NCBI RefSeq assembly: GCF_002813455.1
Contig: NZ_PHHE01000001.1
Coordinates: forward strand, 6,665,001-6,729,000
From: Pseudomonas baetica
Lineage (GTDB): Bacteria; Pseudomonadota; Gammaproteobacteria; Pseudomonadales; Pseudomonadaceae
DNA: 64,000 nt
Direction of reading: 5' to 3'
The translations under genes and the position numbers were made by a program. Positions 11,168 through 57,150 of this stretch are shown here, piece after piece; the first letter of the stretch is position 1; each line of letters starts with the position of its first letter. Below the pieces are notes generated by a model, which saw only the letters and a program-made list of their open reading frames with translations, made no database searches and was not told where the DNA came from.

Positions 11168-13375
<2,208 letters not shown>

Positions 13376-13387
13376 TGACCACTACAG

Positions 13388-13822: not shown

Positions 13823-13929
13823 AAGGGATGGCTGTAAGAGCGAAACCGCCAGCGGCCCCAGCCGCAGCAACGGATATGCCCCCAATCCAAACATTGACCC
13901 ATAAGCAAGCCATGCGTAGCCTTGCGCTT

Positions 13930-14130
13930 TCGAGGTTCTTCGGCCCATGCCGAAGCTAAGAAGGGAACGCGGTCAATGCCGCGGCTGCCCCCGCAACTGT
14001 GAACGGTGAAGTTCGTTGCCAAGCCACTGCCAGCTCAATCCACAGAGCCCGCGGGAAGGCGCAACGAACGCCAGGCCCAGCGCCTGAACACCGTCAGCCA
14101 GGAGACCTGCCTCGTCACAGATTCTCACTA
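13930..14130 (+). ncRNA. Cobalamin riboswitch
   Basis: Conserved adenosylcobalamin riboswitch blocks occur in order: GAAGCTAAGAAGGGAA near 13952, GCCCCCGCAACTGTGAACGG near 13984, GCCACTGCC near 14023, and the B12 box AGCCAGGAGACCTGCC at 14096-14111. The region sits about 100 bp upstream of cobW, the first gene of a cobalt-chelation operon, and should repress it when cobalamin is plentiful. The exact ends and the expression platform (perhaps the CCGGGCGGGG/ATCCGG region after 14130) were not folded. Confidence 0.93.
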
Positions 14131-14228
14131 CAACCGGGCGGGGTGATCCGGTGGCGAACTCTCCAGGCACGCACGCGCGGTGCCGGTTCTCGTCCCGTAT
14201 GCCCGCCACTTTGCCAAAGGGCATACCG

Positions 14229-15299
14229 ATGAAAACACTGGCCAAACTCCCCGTCACCATCGTCACCGGCTTCCTCGGCTCGGGCAAAACCACGCTGCTA
14301 CGGCACATGCTCGATAACGCTCAGGGCCGCCGCATCGCAGTGATCGTCAACGAGTTCGGCGAGTTGGGCATTGACGGTGAAATCCTCAAACAGTGCACCA
14401 TCGGCTGCACCGAAGAAGAAGCCTCCGGTCGCGTTTATGAACTGGCCAACGGCTGCCTGTGCTGCACCGTTCAAGAAGAATTCTTCCCGGTGATGCGCGA
14501 GCTGGTGGCACGTCGTGGTGACCTCGACCACATCCTCATCGAAACCTCCGGTCTGGCCCTGCCGAAACCATTGGTGCAAGCCTTTCAGTGGCCGGAAATC
14601 CGCAGTGCCTGCACTGTTGATGCGGTGATCACCGTGGTCGACAGCCCGGCCGTGGCCGCCGGCACTTTCGCCGCGTTCCCGGATCAGGTCGACGCCCAGC
14701 GCAAACTCGACCCGAACCTGGACCACGAATCGCCACTGCACGAACTGTTCGCTGACCAACTGGCCAGCGCCGATCTGGTCATCCTCAACAAGGCCGACCA
14801 GACCAGCCCGGAAGACCTCGCGCGCGTGCGCCTTGAAGTCGCCGAAGAGCTGCCGCCCGCAGTAAAAATCATCGAAGCCAGCAACGGCCGCCTGCCGCTG
14901 GACGTGCTGATCGGCCTCGGCGCCGGTTCCGAAGAACACATCGATAGCCGCCACAGCCATCACGATCACCACCACGACGGTGATGACGATCACGACGACC
15001 ACGATCACGACGCCTTTGATTCGATCTCCATCGAACTGCCGCAAGCTGACGAAAGCCTGCTGCTCGATGCGCTGACGCAACTGGTGGTCCAGCACGGCAT
15101 CCTGCGTGTGAAGGGCTTCGCGGCGATCCCGAACAAGCCGATGCGCTTGCTGATTCAAGGTGTGGGTACGCGTTTCGACAAGCACTTCGACCGTCAGTGG
15201 GGTGCCGATGAGGCACGCGTCACGCGTCTGGTGTTGATCGGTCAGGAGCTCGACGCGGCGCAACTCGAGGCGCAACTGCGCGCCGCGCTCAGCGTTTAA
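14229..15299 (+). CDS. cobW: CobW-type GTP-dependent metal chaperone
   Basis: A 356-aa G3E-family P-loop GTPase associated with cobalt delivery in cobalamin synthesis. The Walker A motif (G14-F-L-G-S-G-K-T21) is followed by the metal-binding GCLCC motif at 75-79, EFGELGIDGE, the ETSGLALPKP switch region and NKAD for guanine specificity. A His/Asp-rich loop (HSHHDHHHDGDDDHDDHDHD) near residue 240 probably binds metal, and the C-terminal CobW_C domain follows. The ATG at 14229 gives the usual N-terminus; an upstream in-frame start at 14151 would extend into the leader. First gene after the cobalamin riboswitch; cobN begins 3 bp after its stop. Confidence 0.95.
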   Translation: MKTLAKLPVTIVTGFLGSGKTTLLRHMLDNAQGRRIAVIVNEFGELGIDGEILKQCTIGCTEEEASGRVYELANGCLCCTVQEEFFPVMRELVARRGDLDHILIETSGLALPKPLVQAFQWPEIRSACTVDAVITVVDSPAVAAGTFAAFPDQVDAQRKLDPNLDHESPLHELFADQLASADLVILNKADQTSPEDLARVRLEVAEELPPAVKIIEASNGRLPLDVLIGLGAGSEEHIDSRHSHHDHHHDGDDDHDDHDHDAFDSISIELPQADESLLLDALTQLVVQHGILRVKGFAAIPNKPMRLLIQGVGTRFDKHFDRQWGADEARVTRLVLIGQELDAAQLEAQLRAALSV

Positions 15300-15302
15300 G
15301 CC

Positions 15303-18300
15303 ATGCACCTGCTCAGGACCCAGCCCGGCGGTTTCGTCTCGGATGACAACATTGCCGACCTTGGCCAAACCCCCGCCGAGCTGGTGATCCTGTGCAGCGG
15401 TGATTCCAGTCTGGCGCTGCTCGCCGAAGCCGCGCAGCAGTTGCCCGAGGATTATCCGAGCCTGCGTCTGGCCAATCCGATGCAGGTGCAGAATCACGCC
15501 TCGGTCGATTTGTACGTCGACGAAGTGTTGCGCCACGCCAAGGTGATCCTGATCTCGCTCCATGGTGGCATTGCTTATTGGCGTTATGGCGTCGAGCGTC
15601 TGATCGAGCTGACTGAGCGCGGTGTGCAGGTGATTCTGGTGCCGGGTGACGATCGCCCTGATCCGGAACTCAGCGATCTGAGCACCGTCGCAGCCGAGGA
15701 TCGCGATCGACTCTGGCAGTTCTTGCGCCAAGGCGGCATGGGCAACGCGCTGGACTTCTTTCGTTGTCTGGCCAACCGTTGGCTGGCCCGCGATTACGTT
15801 TGGGGTGAGCCGCAAACGCTGCCGCGCACGGCGATTTACCATCCGCACAAAACTTCTGCCGCACTGAGTGACTGGCAAGCCGAATGGCTGCCCGAGCAAC
15901 CGGTGGCGGCGGTGCTGTTTTACCGTTCGCACTTGCAAGCGGCGAACACCGCGTTCATCGATATTTTTTGCCAGCGCCTGCAGGCTGCTGGATTGAATCC
16001 GTTGCCGATCGCGGTGGCCAGTCTGAAAGAGCCCGGCTGTCTGTCGGTGGTCGAGGACTGGCTGGATGAAGTCGAAGCGGGGGTGATTCTCAACACCACC
16101 GGTTTCGCCCAGTCCAGCCCTGAAGCGCCGCATCTGCGGCCGTTTCGTCGCAATATCCCGGTGATCCAGGCGATCTGTGCCCAGGACAACGAGCCCGGCT
16201 GGCGCGACAGCGAGCAGGGCCTTGGGCCAAGGGATCTGGCGATGCACATTGCCCTGCCGGAACTCGACGGGCGCATCATCAGCCGGCCGATCAGCTTCAA
16301 GGATCTGGCCTGGCGTAGCGAGCGCAGTCAGTCCGATGTGGTCTGCTACCGCGCGCAACCGGAGCGCATGGATTTTGTCGCCGAACTGGCGCGGCGCTGG
16401 ATCGATCTGGCGCGGGTGCCGAACGCCGAGAAACGCATCGCGTTGATCCTTGCCAATTACCCGACCCGCGACGGACGCATCGGCAACGGCGTCGGCCTCG
16501 ATACGCCGGCGGCGGCGCTGAATATCCTGCGTGCGTTGCAGGCCGAGGGCTATCCGGTCACGGCAGAGTTGCCCAAAACCGGCACCGAGCTGATCCAGCA
16601 ATTGCTCGGCGGCGTCAGCAACGATCTCGACACGATTGATCTGCGCCCGTGCCAGCAAAGTCTGGCGATGGACGATTATCTGGCGATGTTCAATGCACTG
16701 CCTGACGCCAACCGTGCGGCGGTGGTCGAGCGTTGGGGCCCGCCGCAAAACGATCCGATGTGCCGCGACGGGCGCATGATGATCGCCGGTCTGCGTTTGG
16801 GCCTGACCTTTGTCGGTATTCAACCGGCGCGGGGTTATCAGGTCGATCCGAGCGCGGTCTATCACGATCCGGATCTGGTGCCGCCCCACGGTTATCTCGC
16901 GTTCTATTTCTGGCTGCGCAACACCTATGGCGCCCACGGCGTGATCCACGTCGGCAAGCACGGCAACCTCGAATGGCTGCCGGGCAAAGGTGTCGGACTG
17001 TCCGAGAACTGCTGGCCGGATGCGTTGCTCGGGCCGCTGCCGAACATTTATCCGTTTATTGTCAACGACCCGGGCGAGGGCGCCCAGGCCAAACGACGCA
17101 CACAAGCGGTGATCATCGACCACTTGATGCCGCCGCTGACCCGCGCCGAAACCTATGGCCCGCTGCGTAATCTGGAGCTGTTGGCCGACGAATACTACGA
17201 AGCGCAGCTGCTCGATCCGCGCCGTGCCCGCGAGTTGCAACGCGACATTCTGCAACTGGTGCGCGATACGCAAATCGATCGTGAACTGCAGCTCGACGCA
17301 GCACTGGACAGCGACGCCGATGCGGCGATCTGGCTGCCGCGGCTCGACACCTACTTGTGTGATCTGAAGGAATCGCAAATCCGCGATGGCCTGCACATCT
17401 TTGGCGAGTCGCCGACCGGGCGTTTGCGCATTGATACGTTGCTGGCGTTGCTGCACATTCCGCGTGGTGACGGCAAGGGCGCGCAGTCGAGTTTGCTGCG
17501 CGCATTGGCCAAGGCGTTCGAGTTGGGTTTTGATCCACTCGATTGCGCACTGGCTGATCCGTGGCTTGGCCCGCGTCCGGTTGAGCTGGTATCGGTCAGC
17601 GACGAAATCTGGCGCACTGCCGGCGATACCCGCGAACGCCTTGAACTATTCGCTACTGCGTTGATCTGCGAATCCCTGCAAATTCCCTGTGGGAGCGAGC
17701 CTGCTCGCGAAGGCGTCGTGTCAGTCGCTAAAGATTTAACTGAACCACCGCTTTCGCGAGCAAGTCCGCTCCCGCAGGGGCCGGGCTGGATGGAAGTGAG
17801 TGCAATCACCGACCACCTGCGCGAAGTGGTCGCCCCACGCCTCGACGCCTGCGGTCCCGCTGAAATGCGCGGCCTGCTCGACGCCTTGAGCGGCCGTTTC
17901 GTCCCGGCAGGCCCGAGTGGCGCACCCAGCCGCGGTCGCCTCGACGTATTGCCCACCGGGCGCAACTTCTATTCGGTCGACGTGCGTAACCTGCCGACCA
18001 CCACCGCATGGCGCATCGGCTTCCAGTCGGCCACGCTGATTCTTGAGCGGCACTTGCAGGATCACGGCGATCACTTGCGCCAGCTGGGCTTGTCGGTGTG
18101 GGGCACCGCGACCATGCGCACTGGCGGCGACGACATCGCCCAAGCCATGGCGCTGATGGGCGTGCGTCCGGTGTGGGCCACCGGCAGTCAGCGTGTCGAT
18201 GATTTCGAGATTCTGCCGCTGAGCCTGCTGGATCGCCCGCGTGTCGATGTGACGTTGCGGGTATCCGGATTCTTCCGCGATGCCTTCGCCAACTTGATCC

Positions 18301-19151
18301 GGCTGTTCGACGCGGCCGTGCAAGCGGTTGCCGCGCTGGACGAGCCGGATGATCTCAACCCCTTGGCCGCCAAAGTGCGCGCAGAACGCGAGGCGCTGCT
18401 GCAGTCGGGTCTGGATGAAGAGGCCGCGCGGCGTCAGGCCGGGTGGCGAATCTTCGGCGCCAAACCCGGTGCCTATGGCGCCGGCGTGCAGGGTGCGATT
18501 GACGGCCGTTTGTGGCAGAGCCGCGAGGATCTGGCCGAGGTTTACCTGAACTGGGGCGCCTATGCTTATGGCGGCTCCGACGAAGGCACGGCGGCTCGCG
18601 AACAATTCGTCCAGCGCCTGAGTCAGGTGCAAGCCGTGTTGCAGAATCAGGATAATCGCGAGCACGACTTGCTCGATTCCAACGATTACTACCAGTTCCA
18701 GGGCGGCATGCTCGCGGCCGTGGAAACCCTGCGCGGCGAAGCAGCGGCCAGTTACCACGGCGATCACAGTCAGCCGGATCTGCCGAAGATTCGCACCTTG
18801 AAAGAGGAGCTGAACCGGGTGATCCGCTCGCGGGCGGCGAATCCGAAATGGATCGACGGGGTCAAGCGTCACGGCTATAAAGGCGCGTTTGAAATGGCGG
18901 CGACGGTTGATAACCTGTTTGCCTTCGACGCCACGACGCAGTTGATCGACGATCATCAATACGCGTTGCTGGCCGATGCGTATCTGCTTGATCCGGCGAC
19001 GCGTGATTTTGTTCGTGAGCATAATCCGCATGCGCTGCGGGACATGACCGAGCGGATGCTCGAAGCCCAGCAACGCGGGATGTGGCAGGAGCCGGGGGCC
19101 TATAAAGAGGCTCTCGAAAATCTGCTGCTGGACATAGAAGAAGATACCTGA
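15303..19151 (+). CDS. cobN: Cobaltochelatase large subunit CobN
   Basis: A 1282-aa subunit that inserts cobalt into hydrogenobyrinate a,c-diamide with ATP supplied by the ChlI/ChlD-type subunits. Family landmarks include LILANYPTRDGRIGNGVGLD, IHVGKHGNLEWLPGKGVGLS, YPFIVNDPGEGAQAKRR and LPTGRNFYSVDVRNLPT, and the C-terminal KWIDGVKRHGYKGAFEMA region. Three bases separate it from cobW, so they are one operon. Around residues 796-827 the protein carries about 32 residues (CGSEPAREGVV...RASPLPQGPG) that are the in-frame translation of a REPIN palindrome; CobN proteins do not normally carry this, so it is probably an insertion in a linker that is tolerated. Confidence 0.95.
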   Translation: MHLLRTQPGGFVSDDNIADLGQTPAELVILCSGDSSLALLAEAAQQLPEDYPSLRLANPMQVQNHASVDLYVDEVLRHAKVILISLHGGIAYWRYGVERLIELTERGVQVILVPGDDRPDPELSDLSTVAAEDRDRLWQFLRQGGMGNALDFFRCLANRWLARDYVWGEPQTLPRTAIYHPHKTSAALSDWQAEWLPEQPVAAVLFYRSHLQAANTAFIDIFCQRLQAAGLNPLPIAVASLKEPGCLSVVEDWLDEVEAGVILNTTGFAQSSPEAPHLRPFRRNIPVIQAICAQDNEPGWRDSEQGLGPRDLAMHIALPELDGRIISRPISFKDLAWRSERSQSDVVCYRAQPERMDFVAELARRWIDLARVPNAEKRIALILANYPTRDGRIGNGVGLDTPAAALNILRALQAEGYPVTAELPKTGTELIQQLLGGVSNDLDTIDLRPCQQSLAMDDYLAMFNALPDANRAAVVERWGPPQNDPMCRDGRMMIAGLRLGLTFVGIQPARGYQVDPSAVYHDPDLVPPHGYLAFYFWLRNTYGAHGVIHVGKHGNLEWLPGKGVGLSENCWPDALLGPLPNIYPFIVNDPGEGAQAKRRTQAVIIDHLMPPLTRAETYGPLRNLELLADEYYEAQLLDPRRARELQRDILQLVRDTQIDRELQLDAALDSDADAAIWLPRLDTYLCDLKESQIRDGLHIFGESPTGRLRIDTLLALLHIPRGDGKGAQSSLLRALAKAFELGFDPLDCALADPWLGPRPVELVSVSDEIWRTAGDTRERLELFATALICESLQIPCGSEPAREGVVSVAKDLTEPPLSRASPLPQGPGWMEVSAITDHLREVVAPRLDACGPAEMRGLLDALSGRFVPAGPSGAPSRGRLDVLPTGRNFYSVDVRNLPTTTAWRIGFQSATLILERHLQDHGDHLRQLGLSVWGTATMRTGGDDIAQAMALMGVRPVWATGSQRVDDFEILPLSLLDRPRVDVTLRVSGFFRDAFANLIRLFDAAVQAVAALDEPDDLNPLAAKVRAEREALLQSGLDEEAARRQAGWRIFGAKPGAYGAGVQGAIDGRLWQSREDLAEVYLNWGAYAYGGSDEGTAAREQFVQRLSQVQAVLQNQDNREHDLLDSNDYYQFQGGMLAAVETLRGEAAASYHGDHSQPDLPKIRTLKEELNRVIRSRAANPKWIDGVKRHGYKGAFEMAATVDNLFAFDATTQLIDDHQYALLADAYLLDPATRDFVREHNPHALRDMTERMLEAQQRGMWQEPGAYKEALENLLLDIEEDT
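17688..17783. repeat. REPIN inserted in frame within cobN
   Basis: Two oppositely oriented REP sequences, GTGGGAGCGAGCCTGCTCGC (from 17689) and CGCGAGCAAGTCCGCTCCCG (from 17755), flank a short spacer. The pair matches the intergenic REPINs of this window, but lies inside the cobN frame without a stop or frameshift. Confidence 0.9.
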
Positions 19152-19169: not shown

Positions 19170-19257
19170 AGGGAGCGGGCTTGCTCGCGAAAGCGTCGTA
19201 TCAGACACCCAATGCGTTGAATGACACACCGCCTTCGCGAGCAAGCCCGCTCCCACC
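19170..19257. repeat. REPIN between cobN and chlI
   Basis: GGGAGCGGGCTTGCTCGCGA at 19171 pairs with CGCGAGCAAGCCCGCTCCCA at 19237, in inverted orientation around a spacer of about 47 bp. It lies within the likely cobalamin operon and could affect mRNA stability between cobN and chlI. Confidence 0.9.
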
Positions 19258-19290: not shown

Positions 19291-20301
19291 ATGACGATGA
19301 CCGACACCCCACATTTCCCGCTCTCCGCCGTGGTCGGCGCCGACGATCTGAAACTCGCCCTGTGCCTCACCGCCATCGATCCGAAAATCGGCGGCGTACT
19401 CATCGAAGGCCCACGCGGTATGGCCAAATCTACCTTGGCCCGTGGCCTTGCGGATCTGCTCGCCAGCGGCCAGTTCGTCACGCTTCCGCTGGGCGCCACC
19501 GAAGAACGCCTGGTCGGCACCCTCGACCTCGATGCCGCCCTGAGCGATGGTCGCGCGCAGTTTTCCCCCGGCGTTTTGGCTAAGGCTGATGGCGGCGTGC
19601 TCTACGTCGATGAAGTCAACTTGCTGCCTGATCATCTGGTCGATCTGCTGCTCGACGTCGCTGCCAGCGGCACCAACCTGATCGAGCGCGACGGCATTTC
19701 CCATCGGCATTCGGCGAAGTTCGTGCTGATTGGCACGATGAACCCGGAAGAGGGCGAGTTGCGCCCGCAACTGCTCGACCGCTTCGGCTTGAACGTCGCC
19801 CTCAGCGGTCAAACGGCACCGACCGAGCGCGGGCAGATCATCCGCCGCCGTCTCGATTTCGACAGCGATCCACAAGCGTTCTGCATGCAGTGGGAAACCG
19901 CGCAGCAAACCCTGCGCGAACGCTGCGAAAACGCCCGCCGCGCCTTGGCCGGCATTCCTCTGGATGATGCGGCGCTGGCGCAAATCACCGAGCGTTGCTT
20001 TGCTGCTGGCGTCGATGGGTTGCGTGCCGACCTCGTCTGGTTGCGCGCGGCCCGGGCCCATGCCGCCTGGCGCGGCGCCACCGCCATCGCTGAAGAGGAC
20101 ATCGACGCGGTGGCGGAATTTGCCTTGCGCCATCGTCGTCGCGAACAAACCCCGTCGAGCCCTCAGCAACAACCGGCGCCATCCCCGGCAAACGCGCAGG
20201 CCAGCCCCAATGAAGGGCAGGGCCAGTGGGGCGACATGCCGGCCCCGGCACTCGCCACCGGCAGCCGCCGTGAAGTGCCGAGCTGGCCAAAAAAGCCTTA
20301 G
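19291..20301 (+). CDS. chlI: ChlI-like AAA+ chelatase ATPase subunit
   Basis: A 336-aa AAA+ ATPase that powers the CobN cobalt chelatase. Walker A is G40-P-R-G-M-A-K-S-T, Walker B is VLYVDEVNLL, and LIGTMNPEEGELRPQLLDRF is the sensor/arginine-finger block typical of magnesium-chelatase ChlI. A Pro/Gln-rich linker (SSPQQQPAPSPANAQASPN) precedes the stop. The last codons CCA AAA AAG contain a -1 slippery heptamer, then TAG follows two codons later and a strong hairpin begins directly after the stop, so a share of ribosomes probably continues into the VWA frame downstream. An ATG at 19297 is an alternative start. Confidence 0.94.
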   Translation: MTMTDTPHFPLSAVVGADDLKLALCLTAIDPKIGGVLIEGPRGMAKSTLARGLADLLASGQFVTLPLGATEERLVGTLDLDAALSDGRAQFSPGVLAKADGGVLYVDEVNLLPDHLVDLLLDVAASGTNLIERDGISHRHSAKFVLIGTMNPEEGELRPQLLDRFGLNVALSGQTAPTERGQIIRRRLDFDSDPQAFCMQWETAQQTLRERCENARRALAGIPLDDAALAQITERCFAAGVDGLRADLVWLRAARAHAAWRGATAIAEEDIDAVAEFALRHRRREQTPSSPQQQPAPSPANAQASPNEGQGQWGDMPAPALATGSRREVPSWPKKP

Positions 20302-20335
20302 GCATTCGCCCCCGGTCCGACGCGGGGGCGAATGC
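20289..20335 (+). promoter_or_regulatory. Probable programmed -1 frameshift signal
   Basis: The heptamer A AAA AAG (20289-20295) is in the correct chlI phase (CCA AAA AAG). Six bases later a perfect 12-bp stem begins: GCATTCGCCCCC (20302-20313) pairs with GGGGGCGAATGC (20324-20335) around a 10-nt loop. Slippage enters the VWA frame, which is open from 20274 to 20957 and has no ATG, GTG or TTG start before 20403. Frameshifting in bacterial chlD genes has been described, to my recollection. Confidence 0.82.
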
Positions 20336-20957
20336 CAGACCCCGCGCCGGGCAACTCGATAACGGACGCCTGGGTAAACGTCATGCCGCTCGCAGTGGTT
20401 CGGTGAACTGGCCGGGCACGCTGCTCAATGGTCGTCCGCAACGCCGTGAAGATCTGCTGTTTCAACTGCGCACCCGCTCGCCCCATGAGTTGTGGCTGGT
20501 GATCGTCGATGCCTCGGCCTCGACGCGCCGGCATAACGCACTGAGCGATGCCAAGGGCTTGCTCGCGCAACTGTTCGATGACGCTTATCGCCAGCGCGCG
20601 CGTTTGGCGTTGTTGACCGCCAGTGGAGCGGCGCCGAAGTGGCAGGTGCAAGGGCTGAAGGCCTCAAGCGGTTTGCGCGCCTGGCTGGAGGGGTTGGGCG
20701 CCGGCGGCGGCACGCCGTTGCTGGCGGCGCTGGCGCAGGCGCAGCAATGGCTGGCAGTGCGGCGCAAGCGCTTTCCTGCCGAGCAGCAGCGTTTGCTGGT
20801 GGTGACGGATGGGCGTTTGAAAATGTGGGCAGGGTTACCGGTGCTGGAATGTCCGGGGCTGCTGATCGATATCGAGCGTGGGCCGATACGCTTGGGCCGG
20901 GCAAAGGATCTGGCGGGGGCGCTAGACGCGGAGTATCGGCACATCGACGACCTTTGA
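20295..20957 (+). CDS. chlD: ChlD-like VWA domain, made by -1 frameshift from chlI
   Basis: This frame gives 220 residues when entered by slippage at 20295: a basic linker (ALGIRPRSDAGANARPRAGQ...RLGKRHAARSGSVNWPGTL) followed by a von Willebrand A domain with the MIDAS motif DASAS, GGGTPL and LLVVTDGR. Joined to ChlI it would make a 555-aa AAA-VWA protein with the layout of the chelatase D subunit. A GTG at 20403 could start a separate 184-aa VWA protein, but that removes the conserved-looking linker and has no clear ribosome site. Both forms may exist. The domain is expected to dock CobN onto the ATPase ring. Confidence 0.82.
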   Translation, partial: ALGIRPRSDAGANARPRAGQLDNGRLGKRHAARSGSVNWPGTLLNGRPQRREDLLFQLRTRSPHELWLVIVDASASTRRHNALSDAKGLLAQLFDDAYRQRARLALLTASGAAPKWQVQGLKASSGLRAWLEGLGAGGGTPLLAALAQAQQWLAVRRKRFPAEQQRLLVVTDGRLKMWAGLPVLECPGLLIDIERGPIRLGRAKDLAGALDAEYRHIDDL

Positions 20958-20979: not shown

Positions 20980-21076
20980 CTCATCGCGGGCAAGCCCGCT
21001 CTCACAGGTTTTTCTGCTGAACCCAGGCATTGTGCCCGCCTCGGGAACGGTGGGAGCCGGGCTTGCCCGCGATGGC
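20980..21076. repeat. REPIN downstream of chlD
   Basis: CATCGCGGGCAAGCCCGCTC near 20981 and the inverted GGGAGCCGGGCTTGCCCGCG near 21051 surround a spacer of about 50 bp. Its core is CGGGCAAGCCCG, a sub-variant different from the GCAGGCTCGC type. Confidence 0.88.
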
Positions 21077-21159
21077 AGCCACTCGGACTCGGATCTGTTG
21101 ACCACAATTCGCATCGCTGCTCTATGCTGCACTCCAGCCCCAATCACAAGGAGTGAGCG

Positions 21160-55607: not shown

Positions 55608-56684
55608 TCAGCCCTGTACGTTTGCGGCGAGGCGCTGCGCCGCATCCAGAAGCAAGCGCTCCGTTGCGTTGAAGCCAAGGCAGCCATCGGTCACCGAAAC
55701 TCCGTAGCGCAGTGAAGCGCTCAAAGGCTGGCAGCCCTCGAACAGGTGGGACTCCAGCATCATGCCGATCAGCGAGCGATCGCCGCGCAAGCGTTGTTCG
55801 AGTACATCGTTGAAGACTGCAGGCTGGCGCAGGGGATCCTTGCCACTGTTGGCGTGGCTGCAATCGACCATGATTCGGCCCGGTATTTTCAAACGGATGA
55901 GATCGGCGTGAATCCGTTGGACGCTGACGCGATCGTAATTGGGCCCCTGATGACCGCCGCGCAATACCAGATGGGTGTCCGGATTGCCGGGAGTTTGAAT
56001 GATCGCCGGATGGCCCTGGCTGTCGACGCCAAAGTGACGGTGCGGGTGGGCTGCCGAGCGCATGGCATCAGCAGCAATGGCGACACCGCCGTCGGTACCG
56101 TTTTTGAAACCGACCGGCATGCTCAGGCCGCTGGCCATTTCACGATGGATCTGCGATTCGGTTGTCCTTGCACCGATGGCCACCCAGGTCAACAGGTCGT
56201 CGAAGTAGCCGGCCGCCATGGGTTGCAACAATTCGGTAGCTACCGGCAAGCCAAGGCTGATCATTTCCAGCATCAGTTCGCGCGACAGCGTCAGGCCTGC
56301 GCCCATGTCATCACTGCCATCCAGATGCGGGTCATACGCCAGGCCTTTCCAGCCGACGGTGGTTCGTGGTTTTTCGACATAGGCGCGCATCACCAGGAGC
56401 ATTTCGTTGCTGACCTGCTCGGCGAGGCGGGCGAGTTTTTCAGCGTATTCGCGGGCGGATTGCGCATCGTGGATCGAACAGGGGCCGACGATCACCAGCA
56501 GACGCTGGTCTTCGCCATTGAGAATCGCGCGGACCGCCTGGCGGTGGGCGGCGATCTGATGACTCAAGGCATTGGTCAAAGGCAATTGCTGCTTGAGTTG
56601 CAACGAGCTGGGTAGACGCAATGTCAGTGCTTCGTTGGCGCAGTCACGGGTGGTCAGTGGCAGAGCAGAAACGGACGAGTTCAT
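55608..56684 (-). CDS. Phospho-2-dehydro-3-deoxyheptonate (DAHP) synthase
   Basis: A 358-aa class I DAHP synthase, the first enzyme of aromatic amino-acid synthesis: phosphoenolpyruvate plus erythrose-4-phosphate gives DAHP. Motifs: LLVIVGPCSIHDAQSAREYA, MRAYVEKPRTTVGWKGLAYD, GARTTESQIHREMASGLSMP, GFKNGTDGGVAIAADAM and IMVDCSHANSGKD. Metal ligands Cys, His, Glu and Asp are present. It sits at the end of a minus-strand transcript that first carries two aromatic-rich leader peptides and a terminator. Feedback specificity cannot be read from sequence. Confidence 0.95.
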   Translation of the reverse strand: MNSSVSALPLTTRDCANEALTLRLPSSLQLKQQLPLTNALSHQIAAHRQAVRAILNGEDQRLLVIVGPCSIHDAQSAREYAEKLARLAEQVSNEMLLVMRAYVEKPRTTVGWKGLAYDPHLDGSDDMGAGLTLSRELMLEMISLGLPVATELLQPMAAGYFDDLLTWVAIGARTTESQIHREMASGLSMPVGFKNGTDGGVAIAADAMRSAAHPHRHFGVDSQGHPAIIQTPGNPDTHLVLRGGHQGPNYDRVSVQRIHADLIRLKIPGRIMVDCSHANSGKDPLRQPAVFNDVLEQRLRGDRSLIGMMLESHLFEGCQPLSASLRYGVSVTDGCLGFNATERLLLDAAQRLAANVQG

Positions 56685-56935: not shown

Positions 56936-56972
56936 AAAAAACAAAACCCCCGGTCGGGAGGCCGACCGGGGG
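56936..56972 (-). terminator. Attenuator-type intrinsic terminator
   Basis: On the minus strand CCCCCGGTCGG and CCGACCGGGGG form an 11-bp stem with a 4-nt loop, followed by TTTTGTTTTTT. It lies 50 bp after the first leader peptide and before the second leader and DAHP synthase, so it can stop transcription before the gene. Confidence 0.9.
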
Positions 56973-57021
56973 TTGAGAATTCTCTGGTAGGCGACCCGTT
57001 ATCATGGCCGCCGTTTGGGTA

Positions 57022-57150
57022 TCAGGCGCGCCAGTGGCTAAACCAATACCCAAAATAAAAGCTGACTGGAGCGCAGACGTCATTTGCCCGGGCAGCCGCA
57101 ACCGAGCGCAGGGCGCTGGCGGTACGAAGCTGTGAGAGGGCGTTGAACAT
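57022..57150 (-). CDS. Aromatic amino-acid leader peptide
   Basis: A 42-aa frame with a strong ribosome site (GGAGATCATC-ATG at 57150). Near its end it has SFYFGYWFSHWRA: three Phe, two Tyr and two Trp within eleven residues, i.e. codons for all three aromatic amino acids. A TGA at 57022-57024 is followed after 50 bp by a strong terminator. This is the classical layout of ribosome-mediated attenuation: stalling at Phe/Tyr/Trp codons should prevent the terminator and let DAHP synthase be made. The first 28 residues look unconstrained. Confidence 0.9.
   Translation of the reverse strand: MFNALSQLRTASALRSVAAARANDVCAPVSFYFGYWFSHWRA

Follow-up and report, generated by a model that had tools for sequence, protein, structure and literature searches.

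A predicted programmed -1 frameshift joining the ChlI-like and VWA parts of a chelatase gene in Pseudomonas baetica

Described frameshift systems and the junction in P. baetica

Frameshifting in bacterial chlD genes, mentioned in the initial annotation of this locus, is indeed in print (passages of PMC3711429, PMC5009743 and PMC9227772). The passages covered of PMC3711429 describe 23 magnesium-chelatase genes with a frameshift as one cluster, Pseudomonas included, with 63, 40 and 10% shifting in E. coli for three cassettes; the cassettes with stated efficiencies have runs of 11, 9 and 7 A, whereas Pseudomonas carries A_AAA_AAG. P. aeruginosa is listed in Table 1 of PMC9227772 in the frameshifted-chlD group, as a cobalt chelatase, and Antonov 2020 (Mol Biol Evol 37:2268) is cited there; the passages covered of PMC7242693 contain nothing on a chlD frameshift. 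According to the corresponding passages of PMC5009743, A_AAA_AAR is under strong purifying selection and the bacterial A_AAA_AAG mechanism (dnaX) consists of tRNA-Lys slippage with a downstream stem. The same paper prints a magnesium-chelatase hairpin of P. protegens, suggests a triplex and describes the sequence of the structure as not strongly conserved. This hairpin is homologous to the one described below, for which pairing was found to be retained across sequence changes.

E. coli dnaX likewise combines A_AAA_AAG with a downstream stem-loop and yields two proteins from one gene. There, the shift leads to the shorter product, whereas in chlI/chlD it would lead to the longer one. Moreover, dnaX has an upstream Shine-Dalgarno-like stimulator, whereas no strong one was found here in the 20 nt upstream (-3.7 kcal/mol, compared with -12.9 for an ideal site; the median over the 104 loci defined below is also -3.7, and the best locus reaches -10.2). 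The pairs ChlI/BchI and ChlD/BchD, as well as CobS/CobT, show the same architecture of an AAA+ small and an AAA+/VWA medium subunit; the present locus differs from them in that both subunits would come from one gene by the proposed frameshift.

The window analysed here is a stretch of 64,000 nucleotides of P. baetica DNA and part of a single-contig genome of 6.9 Mb. Compared with fs-chlD (Antonov and co-workers; passages of PMC3711429 and PMC9227772), the locus is alike in gene family, -1 direction, AT-rich slippery site, downstream structure, the two products and the genus Pseudomonas, and only the strain differs. The frameshift observation is genuine, supported and already known for the gene family and the genus. 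Modest additions are a genus-wide count, its exceptions, the counting of hairpin pairs in Pseudomonas and a variant with a displaced stop; none of these was met in the literature passages covered, although they may well have been published elsewhere. The features of the locus are listed in Table 1.

Table 1. Coordinates of the chelatase gene row and its frame junction in the window
Feature	Position	Strand	Basis or remark
Cobalamin riboswitch aptamer	13916..14128	+	Rfam RF00174, 102.4 bits (gathering 31.5)
cobW (ORF as listed; true start possibly further in)	14151..15299	+	TIGR02475, 529.1 bits (cut-off 332.1)
cobN, aerobic cobalt chelatase large subunit	15303..19151	+	TIGR02257 cobalto_cobN, 1720.6 bits (cut-off 822)
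0-frame ORF, small subunit, ChlI-like AAA+ ATPase, 336 aa	19291..20301	+	Pfam AAA_5, AAA_lid_2 and Mg_chelatase above cut-offs
Slippery heptamer A AAA AAG	20289..20295	+	In register for tandem -1 slippage
Linker and VWA (integrin I) domain in the -1 frame	20295..20957	+	Pfam VWA_2 above cut-off
0-frame stop TAG	20299..20301	+	ORF reading
Stimulatory hairpin (proposed role)	20301..20336	+	Arms 20301-20314 and 20323-20336, loop 20315-20322

The ChlI-like and VWA parts are adjacent, in order and in frames differing by -1, as expected for fs-chlD. The last codons of chlI read CCA AAA AAG CCT TAG, and a single codon (CCT) separates the in-register heptamer from the stop. The 14 bp of the hairpin stem pair perfectly around an 8-nt loop, and 5 unpaired nt separate the stem from the heptamer; the initial annotation had correctly let the hairpin begin at the sixth base, and its stem length of 12 bp was corrected. 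The 336-aa ORF matched the NCBIfam models TIGR02442 and TIGR02030 below cut-off and gave sequence matches to the solved ChlI/BchI structures 6l8d, 8osf and 1g8p. The -1 frame leads, as had been proposed, to the VWA domain by way of a basic linker and matches positions 458-641 of TIGR02442, below the whole-protein cut-off. The joined AAA+/VWA product would comprise 335 + 220 = 555 residues and correspond to a medium (ChlD-like) subunit, and the sizes of 336 and 555 aa suggested earlier for two products of one gene are those predicted here as well.

The combination of heptamer and hairpin is more than chance. An AAAAAAG with a perfect stem of at least 10 bp (loop 3-10) within 10 nt is unique in the window when both strands are considered, and 40 first-order Markov simulations yielded neither a heptamer-stem combination nor a stem of at least 14 bp. 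Compared with dinucleotide shuffles, the hairpin fold had a z-score of -4.26 (1/200 shuffles equally stable), and when the -1 peptide was recoded synonymously 500 times, three of the recodings folded as well as the native sequence. Two tRNA-Lys(UUU) genes were found in the genome, with no tRNA-Lys(CUU) among 5 examined of 7 pattern matches.

The run of six A and the strong hairpin behind it could also cause transcriptional slippage at the junction, with mRNAs of altered A count joining the two frames. Hairpin-stimulated transcriptional slippage is known, and longer runs exist among related genes, namely A_AAA_AAA in four Burkholderiales loci and seven A before the G in the Pseudomonas loci L102, L108 and L130. 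Six A is, however, a short run for polymerase slippage, and this explanation is regarded as very unlikely. The hairpin might, in addition, serve mainly as an intrinsic terminator, a repeat element or a small RNA, since it is G+C-rich and a weak match to Rfam P17 (RF01670) ends at it. However, no U run follows it, the P17 match (15.3 bits, gathering 45; E 0.12) mostly covers a generic hairpin, and P17 has no match at E 1e-3 in the P. baetica genome. An Rfam family for the hairpin was rejected, the sub-threshold P17 match being the only candidate. The hairpin is moreover situated within a coding region, its distance from the heptamer being nearly fixed, and a main role of this other kind is considered extremely improbable. 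The preferred reading is a programmed -1 frameshift during translation, with the hairpin as its putative stimulator.

Heptamer and hairpin in relatives and across the genus

The sample of relatives comprised the P. baetica locus and its best 80 relatives (81 loci). AAAAAAG with the VWA part in the -1 frame was found in 64 of these and AAAAAAA with the VWA part in the -1 frame in four (Caballeronia, Cupriavidus; Burkholderiales). Both parts lie in one frame in eight loci, from the gammaproteobacterial groups Neptuniibacter, Motiliproteus, Marinomonas, Psychromonas, Granulosicoccus and SZUA-336; three contigs end ahead of the junction, and two loci were left unclassed (L084, and L072 with AAAAAAG and no VWA match). 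The closest relatives (L001, L008-L073) had not been picked for the heptamer, and it was present in 64/64 of their readable junctions; in all 63 with a VWA match, i.e. without L072, the frame transition occurs at this same heptamer.

For the genus survey, 199 genomes were searched, and the ChlI part was detected at E 1e-60 in 189. The junction pattern TGGNCAAAAAAGNNNTRRGC matched in 172/199 genomes, compared with 2 genomes for the reversed pattern; the 172 matches were taken as chlI junctions, with about five coordinates compared with the ChlI search, all agreeing. Among the 17 genomes with ChlI and without TGGNCAAAAAAGNNNTRRGC, 13 keep an in-register AAAAAAG with changed neighbours, one contig ends early and three have no heptamer. 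The heptamer is therefore present in 185/188 readable junctions, giving a conserved in-register A_AAA_AAR at the frame transition as known from fs-chlD. The P. baetica case, whose hairpin had been described as unusually clear, is not unusual in view of this count and of the Pseudomonas case already in print. Conversely, conservation of heptamer and hairpin across Pseudomonas, which had been proposed as a check, was borne out by the 185 junctions and by the stem pairing reported below.

The three genomes without heptamer have split genes, the VWA part of L127 extending over two frames and chlI of L136 and L137 over several, which fits decay or assembly error; heptamer loss thus accompanies a broken gene in these three. 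Such broken copies within the genus would lend some credit to the view that the P. baetica locus is itself a pseudogene, or a single gene split into two frames by a sequencing error. This view is refuted by the identical transition in 63/63 junctions and retains a practically negligible probability.

Stop codons, start codons, folds, parsimony steps and the cobN gap were analysed in a set of 104 loci, which includes L052 (titled Paucimonas MAG) and L067 (titled Pantoea). Since these loci were selected for AAAAAAG, the presence of the AAA AAG codons in 104/104 is uninformative, and the unselected figure is the 64/64 given above. The 0-frame stop varies within the set (TAG 77, TGA 24, TAA 3). 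L128 and L129 have lost the usual chlI stop, and their next 0-frame stop is a TGA 6 codons on, within the loop of the hairpin; despite this displacement, both the heptamer and the hairpin are retained.

Two separate genes, with the VWA protein translated from its own internal start, were considered as another explanation. The first ATG, GTG or TTG of the -1 frame is GTG 20403, which opens a 184-aa frame. Its Shine-Dalgarno score (17 nt upstream against the anti-Shine-Dalgarno, in kcal/mol; ideal site -12.9) is poor at -2.1, consistent with the earlier statement that the VWA part has no good start of its own. This argument is not decisive, however, because a still worse value (+0.4) was obtained for the listed chlI start at 19291, and the score alone is thus compatible with initiation at GTG 20403. 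Furthermore, a potential -1-frame start codon (ATG, GTG or TTG) is located 23 codons before the heptamer end in 30/104 loci, where an overlapping start would be possible; the window has no -1-frame start codon at this position. On account of these start codons ahead of the heptamer, and because chlI itself starts with a poor score, the internal-start explanation was weighted up slightly and the frameshift reading slightly down. Against it, the first -1-frame start is not conserved over the 104 loci (codon -23 is the commonest position, with 30 loci, and the GTG position of the window is found in 10), most Pseudomonas rows align with the linker ahead of 20403 from its residue 1 onwards, homologues with both parts in one frame exist, and heptamer and hairpin would be left unexplained. 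Independent initiation is therefore judged quite improbable, and the programmed frameshift is retained as the preferred reading.

Conservation of the hairpin was assessed in an alignment (A1) of 82 of the 88 distinct junctions, from which the most divergent six (L065, L071, L072, L077, L134, L135) had been excluded before the pairs were counted; rows with shorter loops (L046, L052, L054) were aligned ungapped and are unpaired at some columns. Over the 14-bp stem, 92.2% of the cells in these 82 sequences are standard pairs, compared with 31-53% when partners were slid by 1 to 3 columns. Two-sided changes were counted in 34 cells (shuffled mean 11; 0/500 shuffles reach 34) and at 5 pairs (reached by 3/500), with 12 further pair types (19/500), in shuffles that ignore the relatedness of the sequences. 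Columns 18/43 form the clearest pair, in which U-A, U-G and C-G interchange. On the chlI tree, the two columns require 7 and 5 parsimony steps when taken one by one and 11 when taken together, indicating mostly single steps via U-G; in the -1 frame, the change is silent (Ile) on one side and exchanges Asn and Asp on the other. The pairing of the predicted hairpin is kept through sequence changes and, by pair counts, largely so within Pseudomonas.

The downstream RNA structure typical of fs-chlD is present, albeit weaker in part of the genus. Over the 104 loci, the median recoding z is -1.9, with 45 loci below -2. The subgroup with a TGA stop has a shorter stem, whose stability was, where tested, no better than that of synonymous recodings (recodings folding as well: L055 197/500, L060 214/500). 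A hairpin no more stable than after recoding was also seen in L134 (234/500) and L135 (404/500).

Gene neighbourhood, subunit complement and the metal

On the + strand, the cobalamin riboswitch is followed by cobW, cobN, a gap of 139 nt and chlI/chlD. Pseudomonas sequences are the closest chlI relatives among the matches listed, and 102/104 heptamer loci have a same-strand cobN match within the fetched stretch (gap median 135 nt, maximum 2706). As a correction to the initial annotation, the gene context points to a cobalt chelatase of the CobN type and not to a magnesium chelatase; cobN, cobW and the riboswitch together suggest that cobalt is inserted into corrin.

The CobT and CobS families have no match anywhere in the P. 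baetica genome, and the search for a second ChlI-like gene gave only a weak next match (best E 3e-8). Three of the ChlI-like matches, other than the weak matches L003, L004 and L006, were opened, including the one at E 3e-8, and presumably represent MoxR-type ATPases. The other VWA match of the genome is taken to be a secreted VWA protein. By the ChlI, CobT and CobS searches, the genome is thus without a separate gene for a small or medium subunit, as expected for fs-chlD.

None of the eight one-frame relatives has a second ChlI at E 1e-12. A CobS-like gene occurs in 3/8 (E 1e-159 or better, just below the family cut-off), and neither kind of separate small subunit was found in the other 5/8, in genomes of unstated completeness. 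L084, an open frame whose VWA part is masked, comes with a CobS-like gene (E 1e-127), and three Caballeronia genomes possess a frameshift-type gene plus a CobS-like gene; the CobS family cut-off was passed in 0/18 genomes searched (best 551.8 bits, cut-off 558.55). Given the one-frame relatives without a small subunit and the Caballeronia genomes with both kinds of gene, a strict need for two products is presumed rather than observed. One-frame relatives in which no small subunit was detected may use another route or none.

Nine loci with an open frame were also scanned for slippery heptamers of one class, in which a triplet of equal bases precedes three A or T, and which could provide a mirror-image, dnaX-like signal for a small subunit. 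Heptamers in the linker were found only in L074 (CCCTTTT, codon 303) and L078 (CCCAAAC, codon 305), with L084 containing a masked stretch; a common signal of this class was rejected.

Several further observations were made along the gene row. By eye, the cobN-chlI gap (about 19171-19254) is filled by paired inverted G+C-rich repeats, which we take to be of the Pseudomonas REP type, with similar ones following the VWA frame around 20980-21080. The B12 gene row is closely preceded by two frames that resemble transposases (11220-13378), one IS256-like and one IS3-like as judged by eye. L126 (genome G176) carries cobN and chlI in one open frame of 1582 aa without an intervening stop, a natural CobN-ChlI fusion and the only open frame of such length among the matches listed; heptamer and -1 VWA part still follow downstream.

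Elsewhere in the window, the Rfam 'small RNA' P15 was matched on the minus strand (56947-57064, 129.8 bits), about 36 kb from chlI. A strong terminator-like hairpin (56945-56974), with a T run behind it, marks the end of this match. A 50-codon frame starting at ATG 56885 (minus strand) begins MNYATYYRYDTFTAWRF, is rich in Tyr, Phe and Trp and precedes a DAHP synthase gene (55608-56684, minus strand). The MNYATYYRYDTFTAWRF frame looks like an aromatic-amino-acid leader peptide, and P15 may be part of a leader region rather than a free-standing sRNA. Of the 11 Pseudomonas loci scanned, six carry the P15 region a few hundred bases ahead of chlI, on the opposite strand (minus-strand positions 5651-5771 in L057, L059, L060 and L062, 5713-5832 in L055 and 5680-5800 in L066).

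Proposed mechanism and subunit ratio

With high confidence, chlI/chlD is read as one gene with a programmed -1 frameshift that gives the small and the medium subunit of a cobalt chelatase. At this locus, the reading is based on the sequence anatomy with its conserved heptamer, spacing and hairpin, on the pair changes in the hairpin, the one-frame homologues, the gene context and the lack of CobT and CobS matches in the genome. Published frameshifting of family members in E. coli reporters supports it by analogy. For the strain itself, we infer frameshifting, its efficiency, co-transcription, subunit assembly and the metal.

Ribosomes that do not shift would read AAA AAG CCT and stop at TAG, releasing the 336-aa AAA+ small subunit. 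In a fraction of ribosomes, the 14-bp hairpin 5 nt ahead would cause a pause at the heptamer and a slip back by one base, with tRNA-Lys re-pairing from AAA AAG to AAA AAA. The shifted ribosomes would continue through the basic linker into the VWA domain, yielding the 555-aa medium subunit. Both products are expected to combine with CobN, whose gene lies immediately upstream, into the aerobic cobalt chelatase of B12 synthesis; the gene row begins with the cobalamin riboswitch.

The strong 14-bp hairpin of the TAG type, the weaker hairpin of the TGA type and the ability of the stop to sit in the loop raise the speculative and rather doubtful idea that the frameshift is tuned and not merely present, in which case lineages may differ in how the small-to-medium ratio is set, or in its regulation by cobalt or magnesium. 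The locus represents a clean, genus-wide example of recoding, which would set the subunit stoichiometry of a metal chelatase.
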